Part shown: positions 6,296 to 15,014 of the stretch, piece by piece
How the letters are laid out: every line of letters starts with the position of its first letter
How positions within the stretch are numbered: position 1 is the first letter of the stretch
Origin: an uncultured Ruminococcus sp.
GTDB lineage: Bacteria; Bacillota; Clostridia; Oscillospirales; Ruminococcaceae
NCBI GenBank assembly: GCA_947174965.1
Contig: CAMWKY010000007.1
Span: 1-19,415, forward strand
Length of the DNA stretch: 19,415 nucleotides
Direction: 5' to 3'
Notes under the pieces: model-generated
Seen by the model: only the letters and a program-made list of their open reading frames with translations
The model's database searches: none
Told to the model about the DNA's origin: nothing
Position numbers and translations under genes: made by a program

Positions 6296-7249
6296 TTATT
6301 TGTCCTCTGATTTTTTGCTTTCCTTGCCTTTCCACCACGACCATGTTACCGGAGCAACAAAAAGTGATGAGTAAGTACCTGAAATCAAGCCGAAAATGAG
6401 TGGAACGGAGAAGCTAAGAAGTGAAGTATATCCGCTGACGAACACAACAACTGATACAACAATCATAGTGCCGATTGTTGTGATAGATGTTCTGATTGAA
6501 CGTTTGAGCGACTGCGAACAGCCCATATTTATAAGCTCATTCAGTGATGCATTAGGATAGAGATTTCTGTTTTCTCTGATTCTGTCGTAGATTACGATAG
6601 TGTTGTTGATTGAATATCCTAAAATTGTAAGGATTACAGCAACGATATTTGCGTTGAACTCAAAACCAAAGAGAATGGACGTTGCAAGCGCAGTTACAAG
6701 GTCATGACAGAGGGCGAATATTGAGCAGATACCAGCCGACCAGCCACCGATTTTATTGAATCGTACTGCAATATAGATGATTATAATGAAAGATGCAACG
6801 ACTATCGCAAGCAGGCATTTCAACAGAAATTCACGTCCTGATGCGGAGCTTACGTCATTGGAATCGAACAATTCAAGCTGATTATCGGGGAAAGCCTGAT
6901 TGAGTGCTTCTGTGAGTGCGAACTGTCGTTCAGCGTTAAGTCCTTCGTTTGATGTGAATGAGAGTGTAACCTGATTTGAGTCGGAATCAAGGCTATGACC
7001 TGTCCGCACGGTTACGGGAACACCCACAACACTTTCGGTTTCATTGTTGATTTTGTTCGTATCAATGTCGCCTGTATATGAGTATGTGAGGATTGTACCG
7101 CCCTTAAATTCGATTGCAAGATTTATTCCACGTATCACAATACCCACACAAAGTGCAATCACAACACATACAGCTATTGCAAGTATCGTCTTTTTCTTTG
7201 CGCAGAAATCATAGATTTTGCTTGTGTTAGGAGTAGTTTTTTTGCTCAT
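6296..7249 (-). CDS. secF: Protein translocase subunit SecF
   Basis: RND-family partner of SecD that uses ion-motive force to pull translocating proteins on the outside of the SecYEG channel. The 317 residues show the first span (about 20-40), the conserved IEFKGGT loop (46-52), a small extracytoplasmic domain, then five spans from about 143 containing GYSINNTIVIYDRIREN (211-227). In E. coli SecF this motif reads NDTIV, and its Asp (D213) lies on the proton path. Here the residue is Asn216 (codon AAC at 6604-6602), while the paired Arg, 34 residues later (R250), is kept. The ATG overlaps the secD stop as ATGA, with GGAGG 9 nt upstream. Confidence 0.95.
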   Translation of the reverse strand: MSKKTTPNTSKIYDFCAKKKTILAIAVCVVIALCVGIVIRGINLAIEFKGGTILTYSYTGDIDTNKINNETESVVGVPVTVRTGHSLDSDSNQVTLSFTSNEGLNAERQFALTEALNQAFPDNQLELFDSNDVSSASGREFLLKCLLAIVVASFIIIIYIAVRFNKIGGWSAGICSIFALCHDLVTALATSILFGFEFNANIVAVILTILGYSINNTIVIYDRIRENRNLYPNASLNELINMGCSQSLKRSIRTSITTIGTMIVVSVVVFVSGYTSLLSFSVPLIFGLISGTYSSLFVAPVTWSWWKGKESKKSEDK

Positions 7250-8670
7250 TTCTCAACACCTCCATAAAGCTTTCTATTTCTGAACGCATTGAACTTTGAA
7301 AGTGAAGTCACCATAAGTTTAGCAAAGAATACGCCGAAAATAAAGTTGCATATAACGCCGACAAGAAGCGTGAATCCGAACGAATACACAACACCCTCTG
7401 TAGTTGCGCCGAACATAAAGAAGATTGTTTTATTGAGAATCTGTGAGAAGAAGCTTGACGGCACACCAAATGCACCCATAAGAATTATAGCAATAATTAC
7501 ATTCGTGATATTTCCGTCAAGGATTGCTGAAAATGCCTTCTTGTATGCAATTTTGATTGCTGAATCAAGAGTTTTTCCAGAACGGACTTCCTCTTTGATG
7601 CGTTCACCCGTGATGATATTTGCGTCGACACCCATACCGATTGAGAGAATGATACCAGCGATACCTGGTATTGTGAGAGTTGAGCCGGGCATGAATCCGA
7701 ACCAGCCTGTTATTGCGGAAAGAGTTCCTGCAATCTGTCCGACAAGCGCAATTACTGCAACGAAGCCGGGCAATCTATAGAGGATAAGCATATAAACAGC
7801 AATAAGTGCGAATGAAATATATGATGCAAGGAGAATTGCATTAAGTGAGCCTTCGCCCATAGTTGACGAAATCGTCTTGAAACTTGTCGTAACCATTTTG
7901 AAAGGCAATGCACCGGAGTTAATCTGGTCGGCAAGAGCCTTTGCGGATTCGGCTGTAAAGTTACCTGTAATGACAGCTTCGCCGTTTGAGATAACGCTGT
8001 TTACAGACGGGTATGAAATCATGTTGTTGTCCATCCATATAGAAATCGGGGTACTTGTGCCACTTAATTCAGCTGTAGCCTTTGCAAATTTTTCAGTACC
8101 GCTGTCATCTCCGCCCGAAGTGAGTTTGAGAGTAACAACGTATTCAAGATTACCATTGCTGTCGGGTTGCTGACCATATCCAGCCTTTTCGACATCATCA
8201 CCGCTTAATACAAGTTCACCTGTCGGGATTGTGTTTCCTAAATCGTCAGTGATAGAGTCAGTGCCTTTTCTGAATGTGAGTTCAGCCATTTCGCCAAGTT
8301 CCTTGACAGCTTCTTCTGCGTCGTATTCGCTTTCGCCAGCCTGCCATGGGAAACGTACGATAATTCTGTCGCTTTTGTTGTCGCTGTAGAGTTCATTATC
8401 GTTGATGCCGAGTGCGGAGAGACGAGTTTTGATTTTTTGAGTTGCAGCATCAAGCTGTTCGTCAGTTACGTCAATATCGTCCGCAGGTGCAAAAGTTACA
8501 TCAACACCGCCCTTGATGTCAATACCCAGTCGAATATCGTCAACACCCTTTATAATCGTTTTTGTGTTGTCGCCGAAAAGGTAGTCAAGACCAAAGACAG
8601 ATGAAACAGTAAACAACGCAATAAAAACAGCAATTAGAAAAAATGTTGATTTGCGTGTTTTTTTGTTCAC
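7246..8670 (-). CDS. secD: Protein translocase subunit SecD
   Basis: Larger subunit of the SecDF translocation motor. With a GTG start at 8670 the product has 474 residues. It shows one N-terminal span (about 9-27), LGIDIKGGV (48-56), the P1 head domain, then five spans containing the diagnostic IPGIAGIILSIGMGVDAN stretch with the conserved D349. GTG is chosen because AGGAGG lies 9 nt before it; an in-frame ATG at 8712 lies upstream of that ribosome site and about where the transcript should begin. Separate secD and secF genes, rather than a fused secDF, are one of the two arrangements found in Gram-positives. Confidence 0.94.
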   Translation of the reverse strand: MNKKTRKSTFFLIAVFIALFTVSSVFGLDYLFGDNTKTIIKGVDDIRLGIDIKGGVDVTFAPADDIDVTDEQLDAATQKIKTRLSALGINDNELYSDNKSDRIIVRFPWQAGESEYDAEEAVKELGEMAELTFRKGTDSITDDLGNTIPTGELVLSGDDVEKAGYGQQPDSNGNLEYVVTLKLTSGGDDSGTEKFAKATAELSGTSTPISIWMDNNMISYPSVNSVISNGEAVITGNFTAESAKALADQINSGALPFKMVTTSFKTISSTMGEGSLNAILLASYISFALIAVYMLILYRLPGFVAVIALVGQIAGTLSAITGWFGFMPGSTLTIPGIAGIILSIGMGVDANIITGERIKEEVRSGKTLDSAIKIAYKKAFSAILDGNITNVIIAIILMGAFGVPSSFFSQILNKTIFFMFGATTEGVVYSFGFTLLVGVICNFIFGVFFAKLMVTSLSKFNAFRNRKLYGGVEK

Positions 8671-8720
8671 GTTTTTTCGCCTCCTGTATATTTTTCTTTG
8701 TCGCCGTGACAATTACTATT

Positions 8721-8749
8721 ATTTTACAATATCTGCGCCAAAAAGTCAA
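8721..8749 (-). promoter_or_regulatory. Sigma-A promoter for secD-secF
   Basis: Minus strand -35 TTGACT (8749-8744), 17-bp spacer, -10 TAAAAT (8726-8721). The predicted start is near 8714. A small dyad TTGTC/GACAA (8712-8708 with 8702-8698) would sit at the very 5' end of the transcript. The leader of about 43 nt fits the GTG start at 8670 and argues against the ATG at 8712. Confidence 0.75.
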
Positions 8750-8761
8750 GCATATCTGCAA

Positions 8762-8777
8762 TAATTGTCTGCAATTA
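8762..8777. other. Short dyad upstream of the secD promoter
   Basis: TAATTG and CAATTA form a 6-bp inverted repeat around 4 nt, about 13 bp upstream of the secD -35 box and 47 bp after atpC. No T-tract follows on either strand, so it is not an obvious atp terminator. It could be an operator or chance. No clear terminator for the atp operon was found in 8750-8823. Confidence 0.25.
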
Positions 8778-8823
8778 GGTAATATGCACAAGTTTCACGC
8801 TGATTTTTTGGTTATATAAGCAA

Positions 8824-11538
<2,715 letters not shown>

Positions 11539-11544
11539 AGTCTT

Positions 11545-13569
11545 TTACTCCTCAAATGCTTCAATAATTCTCTCAATACGCTCTTTCAGGTCGTCTGTAA
11601 GCACTTTTTTGTCCTCAATTTCCTCAATAATATCTTGTCCGTAACTCCTGATATAGTTCATAAGTTCATTGGTGTACTCTTTCATCTCTTTCGGCTTGAT
11701 ATGCTCAAAAAGTCGTTTCTGTGATGCATAGAGAAGTATAACCTGCTCATAGTGCGGAAGCGGATTATACAAAGGCTGTTTCAGCATTTCAGTAATAAGA
11801 TGACCATGATTGAGTAATTCTGTGGTTGCGGGGTCAAGTTCAGACGAAAACTGCGTGAAGATTTCCATTTCCTTGAACTGTGCAAGGTCGATACGCAGAT
11901 TTCCAGCCGCCTTTTTCATTGCCTTTGTCTGTGCCGCACCGCCTACACGTGAAACGGAAAGTCCATAGTTTACAGCAGGTCGCTGTCCTGAATTGAAAAG
12001 CTCACTTTCAAGAAATATTTGTCCGTCCGTGATTGAGATTACATTTGTCGGGATATACGCAGAAATATCACCTGCCAGAGTTTCAATAATCGGAAGTGCT
12101 GTGAGTGAGCCTCCGCCGTGTTCGTCGTCAAGACGACTTGAACGCTCCAGCAGTCTTGAATGTAAATAGAAAACGTCACCCGGATATGCTTCACGTCCGG
12201 GCGGTCTGTGCAGTAACAACGACATTGCACGGTATGCGACAGCGTGTTTTGACAAATCATCATACACAATAAGAACATCTTTTCCCTTTGACATGAAGTA
12301 TTCAGCTATAGCTGTACCCGAATATGGCGCAATATACTGCAATGGAGCTGGTTCGCTTGCTGACGCTGATACAACAACAGTATAATCCATAGCACCGTAC
12401 TTTTTAAGAGTATTTACAGTCTGCGCAACTGTAGACGACTTCTGCCCGATTGCAACGTATACGCATATAACGTCCTTGTCCTTCTGATTTATCATAGTAT
12501 CAACAGCAATTGACGTTTTACCCGTCTGCCTGTCGCCTATGATAAGTTCACGCTGTCCACGTCCTATCGGAAACATTGAGTCTATAGCAAGTATACCAGT
12601 CTGCAACGGCACATTTACCGACTTTCTTTCAATTACACCCGGTGCTTCACGTTCGATAGGGAAGTAATCGTCCGCCTTGATTTTTCCGAGTGCATCAATT
12701 GGTGAGCCGAGCGCATCAACAACACGTCCAAGCAGTTCGTCGCTTACTCCGATACCTGCCCTTTTGCCCGTGCGGACAACTGATGACCCCTCTGTCAAGC
12801 CGTAATCATTTCCAAGAAGTACGACACCGACCGACTTTTCCTCAATATTCTGCACAATTCCACGGATACCAGTCTCAAACTCCACAAGTTCGCCGTACAT
12901 TACGCCACTCATGCCACGCACTCTTGCAATACCGTCACCAAGTTTTGTTATAAAGCCCGTTTCAGTTGCACCCGAACGGACTTCAAAATCTTTTATCTCT
13001 GTTTTGAGTACGGAAATTATGTCTCCTGACTTTATTTCACCGCCGATTCTGTCTACAGTCTCAACGGCTTTATTCTGTAAAGTCTCACGGATTTCATGTA
13101 AACTTGTCCTGTAGCTTCTGTCATACTCAACATCACCGGCATTAAGGATAAAACCGCCGATAATATCGGGGTCGTGCCTGTATTCAATATCAACATCATC
13201 ACGTACAAATTTATTCATGATAAACTTACGCAAATCAGCCTGTTGTGATTCCGTGAGTGGCGTTACATAGCGCACAACAGCTTTGACACTGCCCTGCTTT
13301 TCAAGAAGTATGTCAAGATATTCGTCAAAAATATCATTCAAATCTGAAATTATGCCCGATTTTGCGGAGTTCAGCATAAATCGCTCCATACTTTCAGGGA
13401 AAATCTTCTGAATGATGTTTCTTTTTTCGTCAAGTGTCACAAGCGGATTTTCAAGCGTATCAGAGGCATCAGGACAAGCAACCATCACGCTTTTAGCCGT
13501 TTCAATATCATCACGGCTTATGTCAAGGCGGATAAGTTCTTTCAGAAAGTCTTTTGCAATATCTTTCAT
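11545..13569 (-). CDS. atpHA: Fused ATP synthase delta-alpha subunit (AtpH-AtpA)
   Basis: One 674-residue open frame holds two normally separate subunits. Residues 1 to about 170 match delta/OSCP: a helical N-terminal domain, then SVKAVVRYVTPLT (94-106), DIIGGFILNAGDVEYDRS (135-152) and a final helix ending near 165. From about 177 it is a complete alpha: TKLGDGIARVRG (208-219), Walker A GDRQTGKT (345-352), YDDLSKHAVAYRAMSLLL (436-453), PPGREAYPGDVFYLHSRLLE (456-475) and the arginine-finger stretch SVSRVGGAAQ (538-547, R541). Aligning on GDGIARV puts alpha residue 1 at about 177, so delta and alpha are joined almost without a linker. The start overlaps atpF as ATGA, with GGAGGG 9 nt upstream. 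Fusion of b to delta is known in mycobacteria; I do not recall this delta-alpha form as described. An AGGAG at 13027-13023 near the junction has no ATG, GTG or TTG after it. Confidence 0.93.
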   Translation of the reverse strand: MKDIAKDFLKELIRLDISRDDIETAKSVMVACPDASDTLENPLVTLDEKRNIIQKIFPESMERFMLNSAKSGIISDLNDIFDEYLDILLEKQGSVKAVVRYVTPLTESQQADLRKFIMNKFVRDDVDIEYRHDPDIIGGFILNAGDVEYDRSYRTSLHEIRETLQNKAVETVDRIGGEIKSGDIISVLKTEIKDFEVRSGATETGFITKLGDGIARVRGMSGVMYGELVEFETGIRGIVQNIEEKSVGVVLLGNDYGLTEGSSVVRTGKRAGIGVSDELLGRVVDALGSPIDALGKIKADDYFPIEREAPGVIERKSVNVPLQTGILAIDSMFPIGRGQRELIIGDRQTGKTSIAVDTMINQKDKDVICVYVAIGQKSSTVAQTVNTLKKYGAMDYTVVVSASASEPAPLQYIAPYSGTAIAEYFMSKGKDVLIVYDDLSKHAVAYRAMSLLLHRPPGREAYPGDVFYLHSRLLERSSRLDDEHGGGSLTALPIIETLAGDISAYIPTNVISITDGQIFLESELFNSGQRPAVNYGLSVSRVGGAAQTKAMKKAAGNLRIDLAQFKEMEIFTQFSSELDPATTELLNHGHLITEMLKQPLYNPLPHYEQVILLYASQKRLFEHIKPKEMKEYTNELMNYIRSYGQDIIEEIEDKKVLTDDLKERIERIIEAFEE

Positions 13570-14057
13570 GACATTTTACCCTCCTCTTTTGCAAGAAAAT
13601 CATCAACAAGCTTACGGTTTTTCTCGTCGTCAAGATTAGCCCCGATTACTTTTGATGCAGTTTCAATTGCAAGGTCAGCAATCTGCGCATGAGCCTGCTG
13701 TATTACACGCTTACGCTCGTTTTCGATTGTCTCGTCTGCTGATTTGATAATATCTTCTGCTTCCTTGTGGGATTTGCTGATAATGGACTCCCTTTCAGCT
13801 TCTGCATCTTCATGAGCCTTGCGGAGAATGTTATTAGCCTCCTCTTTGGCTTCATTTATTGAATCAGTATACTGCTGTTTCAGTTCTTCAGCTTCTCTTT
13901 TTGCCTTTTCAGCATCATCAATATCTTTCTGTATTGATTCTGTTCTTTCGTTCATGATTTTGTTAATTGGTTTAAACAGGAATATTCTCAACAGAATAAA
14001 CAGTATAATAACGTTTACAACTGCTTCCAATATGCTCCAGAACTCAAAATTAAGCAT
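13566..14057 (-). CDS. atpF: ATP synthase FO subunit b
   Basis: Peripheral-stalk subunit, 163 residues. One N-terminal membrane span (WSILEAVVNVIILFILLRIF, 7-26) is followed by a long charged right-handed coiled coil from about 35 to 135 and a C-terminal delta-binding region (IADLAIETASKVIGANL). Only one b gene is present, so a b homodimer is expected. GGAGG lies 7 nt upstream of the ATG. It overlaps the fused delta-alpha gene by 4 nt (ATGA), so the two stalk components are translationally coupled. Confidence 0.95.
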   Translation of the reverse strand: MLNFEFWSILEAVVNVIILFILLRIFLFKPINKIMNERTESIQKDIDDAEKAKREAEELKQQYTDSINEAKEEANNILRKAHEDAEAERESIISKSHKEAEDIIKSADETIENERKRVIQQAHAQIADLAIETASKVIGANLDDEKNRKLVDDFLAKEEGKMS

Positions 14058-14074: not shown

Positions 14075-14302
14075 TTACTTATTGCCAAGTGAAAGAATGA
14101 TAAGAAGTGCAATAACAAAGCCATAGATAGCAGTTGCTTCTGCCAATGCACAGCCGATAAGAAGTGTACTTCTGATGTCACCTTTTGCTTCGGGCTGACG
14201 TGCAATTGATTCTGTAGCCTTAGCTGTTGCAATACCGATTCCGATTCCTGCTCCTGCTCCTGTTAATACAGCAACTGCTGCACCGATTGCGATTGTTCCC
14301 AT
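14075..14302 (-). CDS. atpE: ATP synthase FO subunit c
   Basis: Rotor-ring proteolipid, 75 residues, two spans joined by the polar loop ARQPEAKGD (34-42). The first helix has the close-packing GAGAGIGIG motif (15-23); the second carries the ion-binding carboxylate E55 in [10 protein letters not shown]. Compared with the Na+ c-ring of Ilyobacter tartaricus, the ligands Gln32 and Ser66 are replaced by Ile22 and Ala56, while the Thr and Tyr after the Glu (T57, Y60) are kept. Loss of Gln and Ser points to proton rather than Na+ coupling. CGGAGG lies 9 nt before the ATG. Confidence 0.96.
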
Positions 14303-14336: not shown

Positions 14337-15014
14337 TTATTCCTCCATAGCTTCCGCCATGAAAAGAGATGTCAGAAAAACAAATACATATGCCTGAATA
14401 AAGCCGTCAAAAATATCAAAATAAAGACTGAACACAACAGGCAAGCCATATGGCACACATAACTTTATAAGTTCCATTACAACAAATGCGCCGAGTACAT
14501 TTCCGAAAAGTCGCATACAAAGCGAAAGCGGACGTGTTATAAGTTCAAGAATATTTATCGGTATCATGATAGCCATAGGCTTTGCAAATCCCTTAATCCA
14601 GCCAATACCGCCGTTTTCAATCAGAGATGTAACCTGAATAAGTATGATTGCAATTCCCGCAAGTGCCACTGTAACATTTATATCCTTTGTGGGCGGGGTA
14701 AATCCGAATATACCGATTATATTTGAAAAGCCGATGTAAATAATCAGTGTTTCAAGTATAGTAAGATATTTCTTTCCCTTTTCACCTAATATGCCAAGAA
14801 AAAAGTTATTGAGGGCGGTTATGCCTGTTTCAATAAGACACTGCTTTCCCTTTGGTACTTTTTTCAGGTTGTGTGTGAAGATAAGCGACAGAATTACAAG
14901 TACAGCCATGATTATCCACGTTACAACACACGAATCAGCTATGGGAATGCCACATATCGTAAATGCGGTTTTCGATTCAAGCTCCTCCATAAGTTTTTCC
15001 GAAAGATTACCCAT
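14337..15014 (-). CDS. atpB: ATP synthase FO subunit a
   Basis: Stator subunit forming the two ion half-channels against the c-ring, 225 residues with five or six membrane spans. The essential arginine is R168 in RPLSLCMRLFGN (161-172), and the GFTPPTKDINVT stretch (104-115) typical of bacterial subunit a is present. It is the first gene of the operon; no atpI is seen upstream. The ATG at 15014 has AGAAGG 6 nt before it. About 105 nt of structured leader separate it from the proposed promoter. Confidence 0.95.
   Translation of the reverse strand: MGNLSEKLMEELESKTAFTICGIPIADSCVVTWIIMAVLVILSLIFTHNLKKVPKGKQCLIETGITALNNFFLGILGEKGKKYLTILETLIIYIGFSNIIGIFGFTPPTKDINVTVALAGIAIILIQVTSLIENGGIGWIKGFAKPMAIMIPINILELITRPLSLCMRLFGNVLGAFVVMELIKLCVPYGLPVVFSLYFDIFDGFIQAYVFVFLTSLFMAEAMEE

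Follow-up and report, generated by a model that had tools for sequence, protein, structure and literature searches.

Described delta fusions and multi-stalk ATP synthases

The closest described counterpart of the gene analysed here is an engineered one. Ueno et al. (2025, PMC12229609) stripped the PS3 delta subunit of its N-domain and joined the C-domain to alpha; the resulting delta-DeltaN-alpha enzyme had ∼2 stalks and a subunits by gel, zero to three stalks by cryo-EM (average 1.26) and an H+/ATP ratio of 5.8 vs 3.0. The authors argue that the delta N-domain, placed on the threefold axis, restricts the stalks to one, and they name natural N-truncated delta-alpha cases (Acidaminococcus fermentans; UniProt G4Q3K6 and A0A1I2C5T3). 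Multi-stalk F-type enzymes exist in nature as well: each structure entry from Chloroflexus aurantiacus (PDB 9itj and others) contains two copies of delta and two of a. How many stalks and a subunits an enzyme has partly sets its ion cost or yield per ATP.

The window, that is, the whole 19,415-nucleotide stretch analysed, is contig C7 of a draft genome of an uncultured Ruminococcus sp. (371 contigs, 83% complete), and it encodes a full-length delta fused to alpha. Like the delta-DeltaN-alpha protein of Ueno et al. (PDB 9jc1), this gene joins the delta C-domain to the alpha N-terminus: residues 93-668 align in one piece with residues 2-572 of the engineered chain (9jc1_I), the gaps being 7 residues at the junction, where the window is longer, and 2 residues near the end. 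Unlike the engineered protein, the window's protein retains the whole delta N-domain (predicted to be folded) and has a linker 7 residues longer. The C. aurantiacus enzyme would be alike only if the window's enzyme is multi-stalk; its delta is a separate chain of 157 residues, whereas the window's is fused and is the sole OSCP match found in its 83% complete genome. In the mycobacterial b-delta proteins (e.g., PDB 9vkp, 7njk), delta is likewise fused with its N-domain to a stalk neighbour, but there the partner is b; in the window delta is joined to alpha, and b has a gene of its own (13566-14057), which bears out the distinction drawn in a preliminary description of this DNA. The ordinary atpH-atpA operons of near relatives (e.g., Anaerovorax, L091) have the same subunits and gene order as the window but keep two genes, alpha having its own start codon and Shine-Dalgarno sequence. 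A search of the literature on fused or multi-stalk ATP synthases, with few subscription journals covered, found no report of a full-length delta-alpha fusion. The proposal that natural delta-alpha fusions are multi-stalk enzymes has already been published for N-truncated cases; the present analysis adds the full-length form, together with its fixation across the genus, the loss of the start signals and the range of related architectures.

The delta-alpha gene, its operon and its junction

The F1Fo operon lies on the minus strand in the order a-c-b-[delta-alpha]-gamma-beta-epsilon and is ordinary apart from the fusion. Its features are as follows.

14337..15014, minus strand: atpB, a subunit, 225 aa; PF00119, the single match in its own genome
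14075..14302, minus strand: atpE, c subunit, 75 aa; PF00137
13566..14057, minus strand: atpF, b subunit, a separate gene, 163 aa; PF00430, 96.3 bits; its stop overlaps the ATG of the fusion
13054..13569, minus strand: delta (OSCP) part, residues 1-172, with N-domain (six helices) at ∼3-91 and C-domain at ∼93-164; from PF00213, AlphaFold2 and Foldseek
13030..13077, minus strand: junction, residues 165-180; from the sequence, the junction survey and linker lengths
11545..13035, minus strand: alpha part, residues 179-674 with the stop codon; TIGR00962, with PF02874, PF00006 and PF00306
10639..11538, minus strand: atpG, gamma subunit, 299 aa; PF00231; its ATG lies 6 bases past the stop of the fusion
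9227..10642, minus strand: atpD, beta subunit, 471 aa when counted from the listed GTG; TIGR01039, 813.1 bits
8824..9324, minus strand: atpC, epsilon subunit, 166 aa when counted from the listed TTG; PF02823 and PF00401

The true atpC start is probably later than the listed TTG, since the domain match begins at residue 36.

The fusion is a single ORF of 674 aa (11545..13569, minus strand) with an ATG start and no internal stop, while the plus strand across the same positions is blocked by stops. The preliminary description had reported one 674-codon frame with a full delta and a full alpha, naming no strand, and the ORF together with two profile matches confirms it. PF00213 (OSCP) covers residues 15-164 at 90.0 bits (cut-off 22.3; profile positions 19-172 of 172) and so takes in both delta domains, and the atpA profile TIGR00962 covers residues 179-673 at 758.9 bits (cut-off 484.45; profile positions 2-498 of 503). 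Within the alpha part, Pfam places ATP-synt_ab_N at 204-268, ATP-synt_ab at 325-540 and ATP-synt_ab_C at 547-672. The alpha profile of the N-ATPase (alternate F1F0 ATPase, TIGR03324) scores 616.7 bits, below its cut-off of 750.5; in every respect tested, the window's enzyme is an F-type ATP synthase. The ATG of the fusion and the stop of b overlap as ATGA, with GAGGAGGG upstream of the ATG.

The delta part and the alpha N-terminal helix are separated by ∼16 residues (165-180), so the earlier statement that there is essentially no linker was nearly right, short of these residues. This stretch contains no in-frame ATG, GTG or TTG. A full-length AlphaFold2 model (mean pLDDT 69.9, poor at 486-556, and used solely for the secondary structure of the junction) predicts the last delta helix at 153-175 and a separate alpha N-terminal helix at 181-198, the latter strongly conserved across 22 Ruminococcus-type sequences. 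Counted between window positions 165 and 182, the linker spans 16-30 residues in these 22 and 10-15 in 20 other full fusions.

Distribution, start signals and related forms

All 120 listed homologues of residues 1-240, the first being the window itself, carry OSCP, PF02874 and PF00006 in one protein; three (P0057, P0060 and P0066) are short and lack PF00306. The named close homologues among the matches listed are mostly labelled Ruminococcus. Within the genus, 115 of 120 genomes (own included) have an alpha match, and 108 of the 115 hold a frame of 670-699 aa; the earlier suggestion that close relatives might all have separate genes, which would have spoken against the fusion, therefore fails. 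Eight of the 108 hold an unfused-length alpha as well, four genomes hold an unfused-length alpha alone, and the remaining three contain shorter frames only, with OSCP in the same frame in two. When the count is confined to the 65 good genomes (≥90% complete, ≤5% contaminated), the fused frame is found in 62, of which 58 have no unfused-length alpha, and three have the unfused form only. An OSCP match is present in 56 of 59 same-genus relatives, with a delta of ordinary length in six (four beside a fusion, two without one).

The genus genomes with both lengths of alpha are G021, G034, G042, G043, G359, G374, G378 and G409, and those with the unfused length only are G016, G054, G376 and G377. 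G045 (6% contamination) has a fused 681-aa frame on each of two contigs, C31 and C41, with equal scores.

Across the class, 100 of 157 genomes have an OSCP match, and in 20 of them (own included) the match lies in a frame of 575 aa or longer, a count by frame length that takes in one frame with an internal stop and one match below the Pfam cut-off. Full fusions also occur in cultured Lachnospiraceae, in isolates such as Pseudobutyrivibrio xylanivorans DSM 14809 and Oribacterium parvum ACB1. An artefact of assembly or sequencing, for which the fragmented state of the source draft might speak, can practically be dismissed when the same architecture recurs in the listed homologues, in other assemblies and in these isolates. 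The fusion is genuine, stable in evolution and near-fixed in the genus. In the two homologue lists made, nearly all rows with a named source are annotated simply as alpha subunit; automatic annotation conceals the delta-alpha fusion.

Comparison of the best 80 of 587 loci by similarity, drawn from named genomes and carrying no estimate of prevalence, gave 26 full fusions, 29 fusions of the delta C-domain only and 25 unfused loci. A start codon with a Shine-Dalgarno sequence (at least 5 bases) stands at the junction in 25/25 unfused loci vs 3/42 full fusions and 2/31 C-domain fusions, and is absent from the window; start codons without a Shine-Dalgarno sequence lie near the junction in 22/42 and 21/31 of the two fused classes, respectively. 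In 22/25 unfused loci, GGAGGTGA precedes the alpha start, and at the place it usually holds the window has GGCGGTGAA. In several unfused loci (L075, L091, L093), the TGA of GGAGGTGA also serves as the delta stop codon. Delta and alpha share one frame in L073, L075, L092 and L093, split by a single stop codon (two in L075), and loss of stop codons would therefore be a short route to the fusion.

These junctions bear on whether a free alpha is made alongside the fused chain. An internal start for such an alpha is absent in the window and, by the junction survey, unlikely for the full-fusion class. As nearly all fusions have lost the start signals at the junction, separate initiation of alpha is unlikely, and every alpha is expected to have a delta attached. 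The separate alpha that the preliminary description allowed as an escape was not found: the own genome, 83% complete, contains no second full alpha, the three other matches being the beta of this operon and two frames on contig C17 (465 and 594 aa). The second complete set that it also considered occurs in some relatives, namely the eight fused genomes with an unfused-length alpha; none was found in the 83% complete own genome. A free alpha or delta supplied from elsewhere, by internal initiation or by a gene within the 17% of the genome that is missing, draws on that incompleteness and on those eight of 108 genomes; set against a window junction devoid of a start codon, the 3/42 vs 25/25 contrast in start signals and the 58 of 65 good genus genomes in which the fused alpha is alone, it is very improbable.

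In the alpha tree, nine Ruminococcus sequences form one group (support 100) beside the unfused Anaerovorax L091 and L101 (support 92), apart from the remaining fusions, where full and C-domain-only forms are intermingled. A single clade of all fused sequences was rejected (p 0.00045; 60 fused vs 36 unfused) in a test that used a quick tree of 96 of the 113 sequences and was picked after the first tree had been seen; the 17 left out were nine b-delta-alpha sequences, five with stand-alone C-domains, and L159, L164 and L024. The fewest changes between fused and unfused states on the tree number seven, with gains and losses indistinguishable by count. On this sequence evidence, the fusions had multiple origins or underwent losses.

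The C-domain-only fusions (Butyrivibrio, Shuttleworthella, Absicoccus and Mogibacterium; L098, L105, L114, L127 and L138) share alpha lineage and operon place with the window but lack the N-domain; b lies directly upstream in 4/4 such loci looked at. Nine further alpha genes (L145-L153, from G078, G342, G150, G176, G224, G148, G079, G321 and G118) encode 736-759 aa, with a b-like membrane helix and coil at the front, alpha at the end and a delta C-domain between them, and are apparent b-delta-alpha triple fusions. They form one clade in the alpha tree (support 100). Pfam, run on two of the nine, gave PF00430 at 38.2 bits and PF00213 at 39.6 in L152, and PF00430 at 27.7 bits (just under the cut-off of 28) and PF00213 at 39.1 in L153. 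A separate b-like gene of 138-141 aa lies just upstream in at least six of these nine loci. If uncleaved, these proteins would provide a membrane-anchored stalk for every alpha. In a second homologue search, OSCP and alpha occur together in 120/120 listed rows, part of which carry PF00430 too.

Other variants were seen among the loci. The 675-aa alpha gene of L155 (G157) begins with two tandem delta C-domains (two OSCP stretches, 88.8 bits), not a full delta. In L157, L158, L161 and L162, stand-alone genes of 72-74 aa resembling the delta C-domain lie just upstream of an alpha of 499-517 aa, and OSCP matches confirm those of G075 (L157) and G086 (L158). In L163 (3601-4290, minus strand), a b-like gene of 229 aa upstream of a 510-aa alpha has a tail that appears to resemble the delta C-domain.

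These forms also bear on cleavage, another escape named in the preliminary description: a post-translational cut in the linker would release ordinary free delta and alpha, the excess delta being degraded. The linker is short and variable in length and sequence, so that a cut would do little harm; by eye, it has no common motif across the 22 Ruminococcus-type and 20 other full fusions, and the last delta helix is predicted to reach residue 175. Were the chains cut, the b-delta-alpha and C-domain-only relatives would lose their link, and the latter (29 of the best 80 loci) would make little sense, which argues for an uncleaved chain. Fusions that arose repeatedly or were lost, as the rejection of one clade indicates, are a further point against cleavage, and we regard it as unlikely.

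The delta domains and the number of stalks

The delta part alone (residues 1-174) is predicted by AlphaFold2 as an N-domain of six helices followed by a C-domain (mean pLDDT 85.5), and in Foldseek the model matches delta/OSCP chains, PS3 delta with a TM score of 0.75. Values of dN/dS, rough at the high dS of these sequences and taken from 37 of 231 pairs, are 0.158 for the N-domain, 0.066 for the C-domain and 0.053 for alpha, which indicates purifying selection on the N-domain. At matched alpha identity, the N-domain is at least as conserved as in unfused deltas, save in the 90-95% bin (59 vs 62%). Decay of the N-domain, as expected if it were useless, was not found as such by either measure. 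The Ruminococcus-type C-domain lies above the unfused one in every bin (e.g., 66 vs 38-40% at 75-80% alpha identity) and is better preserved than the rest of delta.

The E. coli delta reportedly presents residues Y11 and A14 on its alpha-binding face. Across 84 aligned deltas hand-picked from the loci (22 Ruminococcus-type, 20 other full fusions, 25 unfused and 17 ordinary), position 11 of helix 1 is nonpolar or small in 42/42 unfused deltas, and charged or polar in 22/22 Ruminococcus-type and 12/20 other full fusions. When relatedness is allowed for, the pattern is not significant (four independent pairs, ∼2 as expected and none against), and it gives a hint that the helix-1 docking face has changed in full fusions. 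Helices 1 and 5 of OSCP grip the alpha N-terminus, according to a review (PMC4057687).

The preliminary description had raised the stoichiometry of a delta on every alpha as a puzzle, and the puzzle is real. The mycobacterial b-delta fusion brings one delta copy per complex. Here, three delta anchors per motor head should be expected instead of one. What the preliminary description overlooked is that a delta C-domain on each alpha could recruit two or three stalks, a plausible outcome in view of the published engineering (PMC12229609).

The best explanation, with a probability of about 0.4, is an uncleaved delta-alpha chain, present three times per F1, in a natural multi-stalk ATP synthase. 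It takes from observation the fusion, its conservation, a genome in which no second alpha or delta was found and a junction without alpha start signals, and it supposes the lack of cleavage, the three copies, the changed docking and the stalk number. The gene would yield one uncleaved chain, three chains would enter each F1, and the delta C-domain of each would grasp a b2 stalk. The covalent bond to the alpha N-terminal helix would replace the crown docking done by the N-domain of a free delta. Three C-domains per F1, together with an altered N-domain docking face, could then recruit more than one b2-a unit, and such an enzyme would move more ions per ATP, which would be useful at a small ion gradient.

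If the chain stays uncut, there are three delta parts per F1, and the stalk number hangs on whether one N-domain still takes the axis. Should it do so, its C-domain would hold the sole b2 and the other two delta parts would hang free as tolerated ballast, in line with the unbound deltas suggested in the preliminary description. This single-stalk outcome is a serious contender at somewhat less than even odds: the N-domain is retained in fold and under purifying selection, Ueno et al. (PMC12229609) give it the role of capping stalks at one, and the own genome has a single a match and one b above cut-off. It sits less well with the changed helix-1 face (weak once relatedness is allowed for), with a Ruminococcus-type C-domain more conserved than in unfused relatives and with the loss of the N-domain in related lineages.

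For the multi-stalk enzyme speak the near genus-wide fixation, the failure to find a free delta in the 83% complete own genome, the loss of junction start and Shine-Dalgarno sequence, the alignment with 9jc1_I, the stalks and H+/ATP ratio of the engineered enzyme, and the C. aurantiacus entries as examples of multi-stalk F-type enzymes. Against it stand a well-folded (as predicted), constrained N-domain, the very domain that limits stalks to one in the argument of Ueno et al., a helix-1 pattern that loses significance with relatedness, and an average of just 1.26 stalks by cryo-EM even in the engineered enzyme (PMC12229609). We lean slightly towards a multi-stalk enzyme, since no part of delta is kept as well as the C-domain, the helix-1 face appears changed, and relatives have dropped the N-domain or fused b too. 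That the Ruminococcus enzyme in particular has two or three stalks despite its N-domain, with crown docking made dispensable by the fusion, the docking face changed and the N-domains folded but off axis, is conceivable and on the doubtful side.

The fusion may mean that Ruminococcus-type motors work with two or more side stalks. With delta on alpha and the N-domain kept, the Ruminococcus type and a number of Lachnospiraceae are a natural experiment on the one-stalk rule: a single stalk in full-fusion enzymes would back the rule, whereas several would break it and would add to c-ring size a second natural way of shifting the ion/ATP ratio. The carriers are rumen and gut anaerobes with small energy yields. 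If the multi-stalk reading is true, a stop codon lost between neighbour genes would have shifted an entire genus to a higher ion-to-ATP ratio, and this would have happened more than once among Clostridia.

Two minor observations concern the ions and the other rotary machinery of this cell. The c subunit (14075-14302, minus strand) carries RQPEA and ALAEATAIY, which match the residues of Na+-binding c rings for the most part but incompletely (Ala standing for the usual Ser) and so do not settle the coupling ion. On contig C17, at about 6834-9061, the 594- and 465-aa frames resemble V-type A and B subunits, and the cell may have two rotary ATPases.
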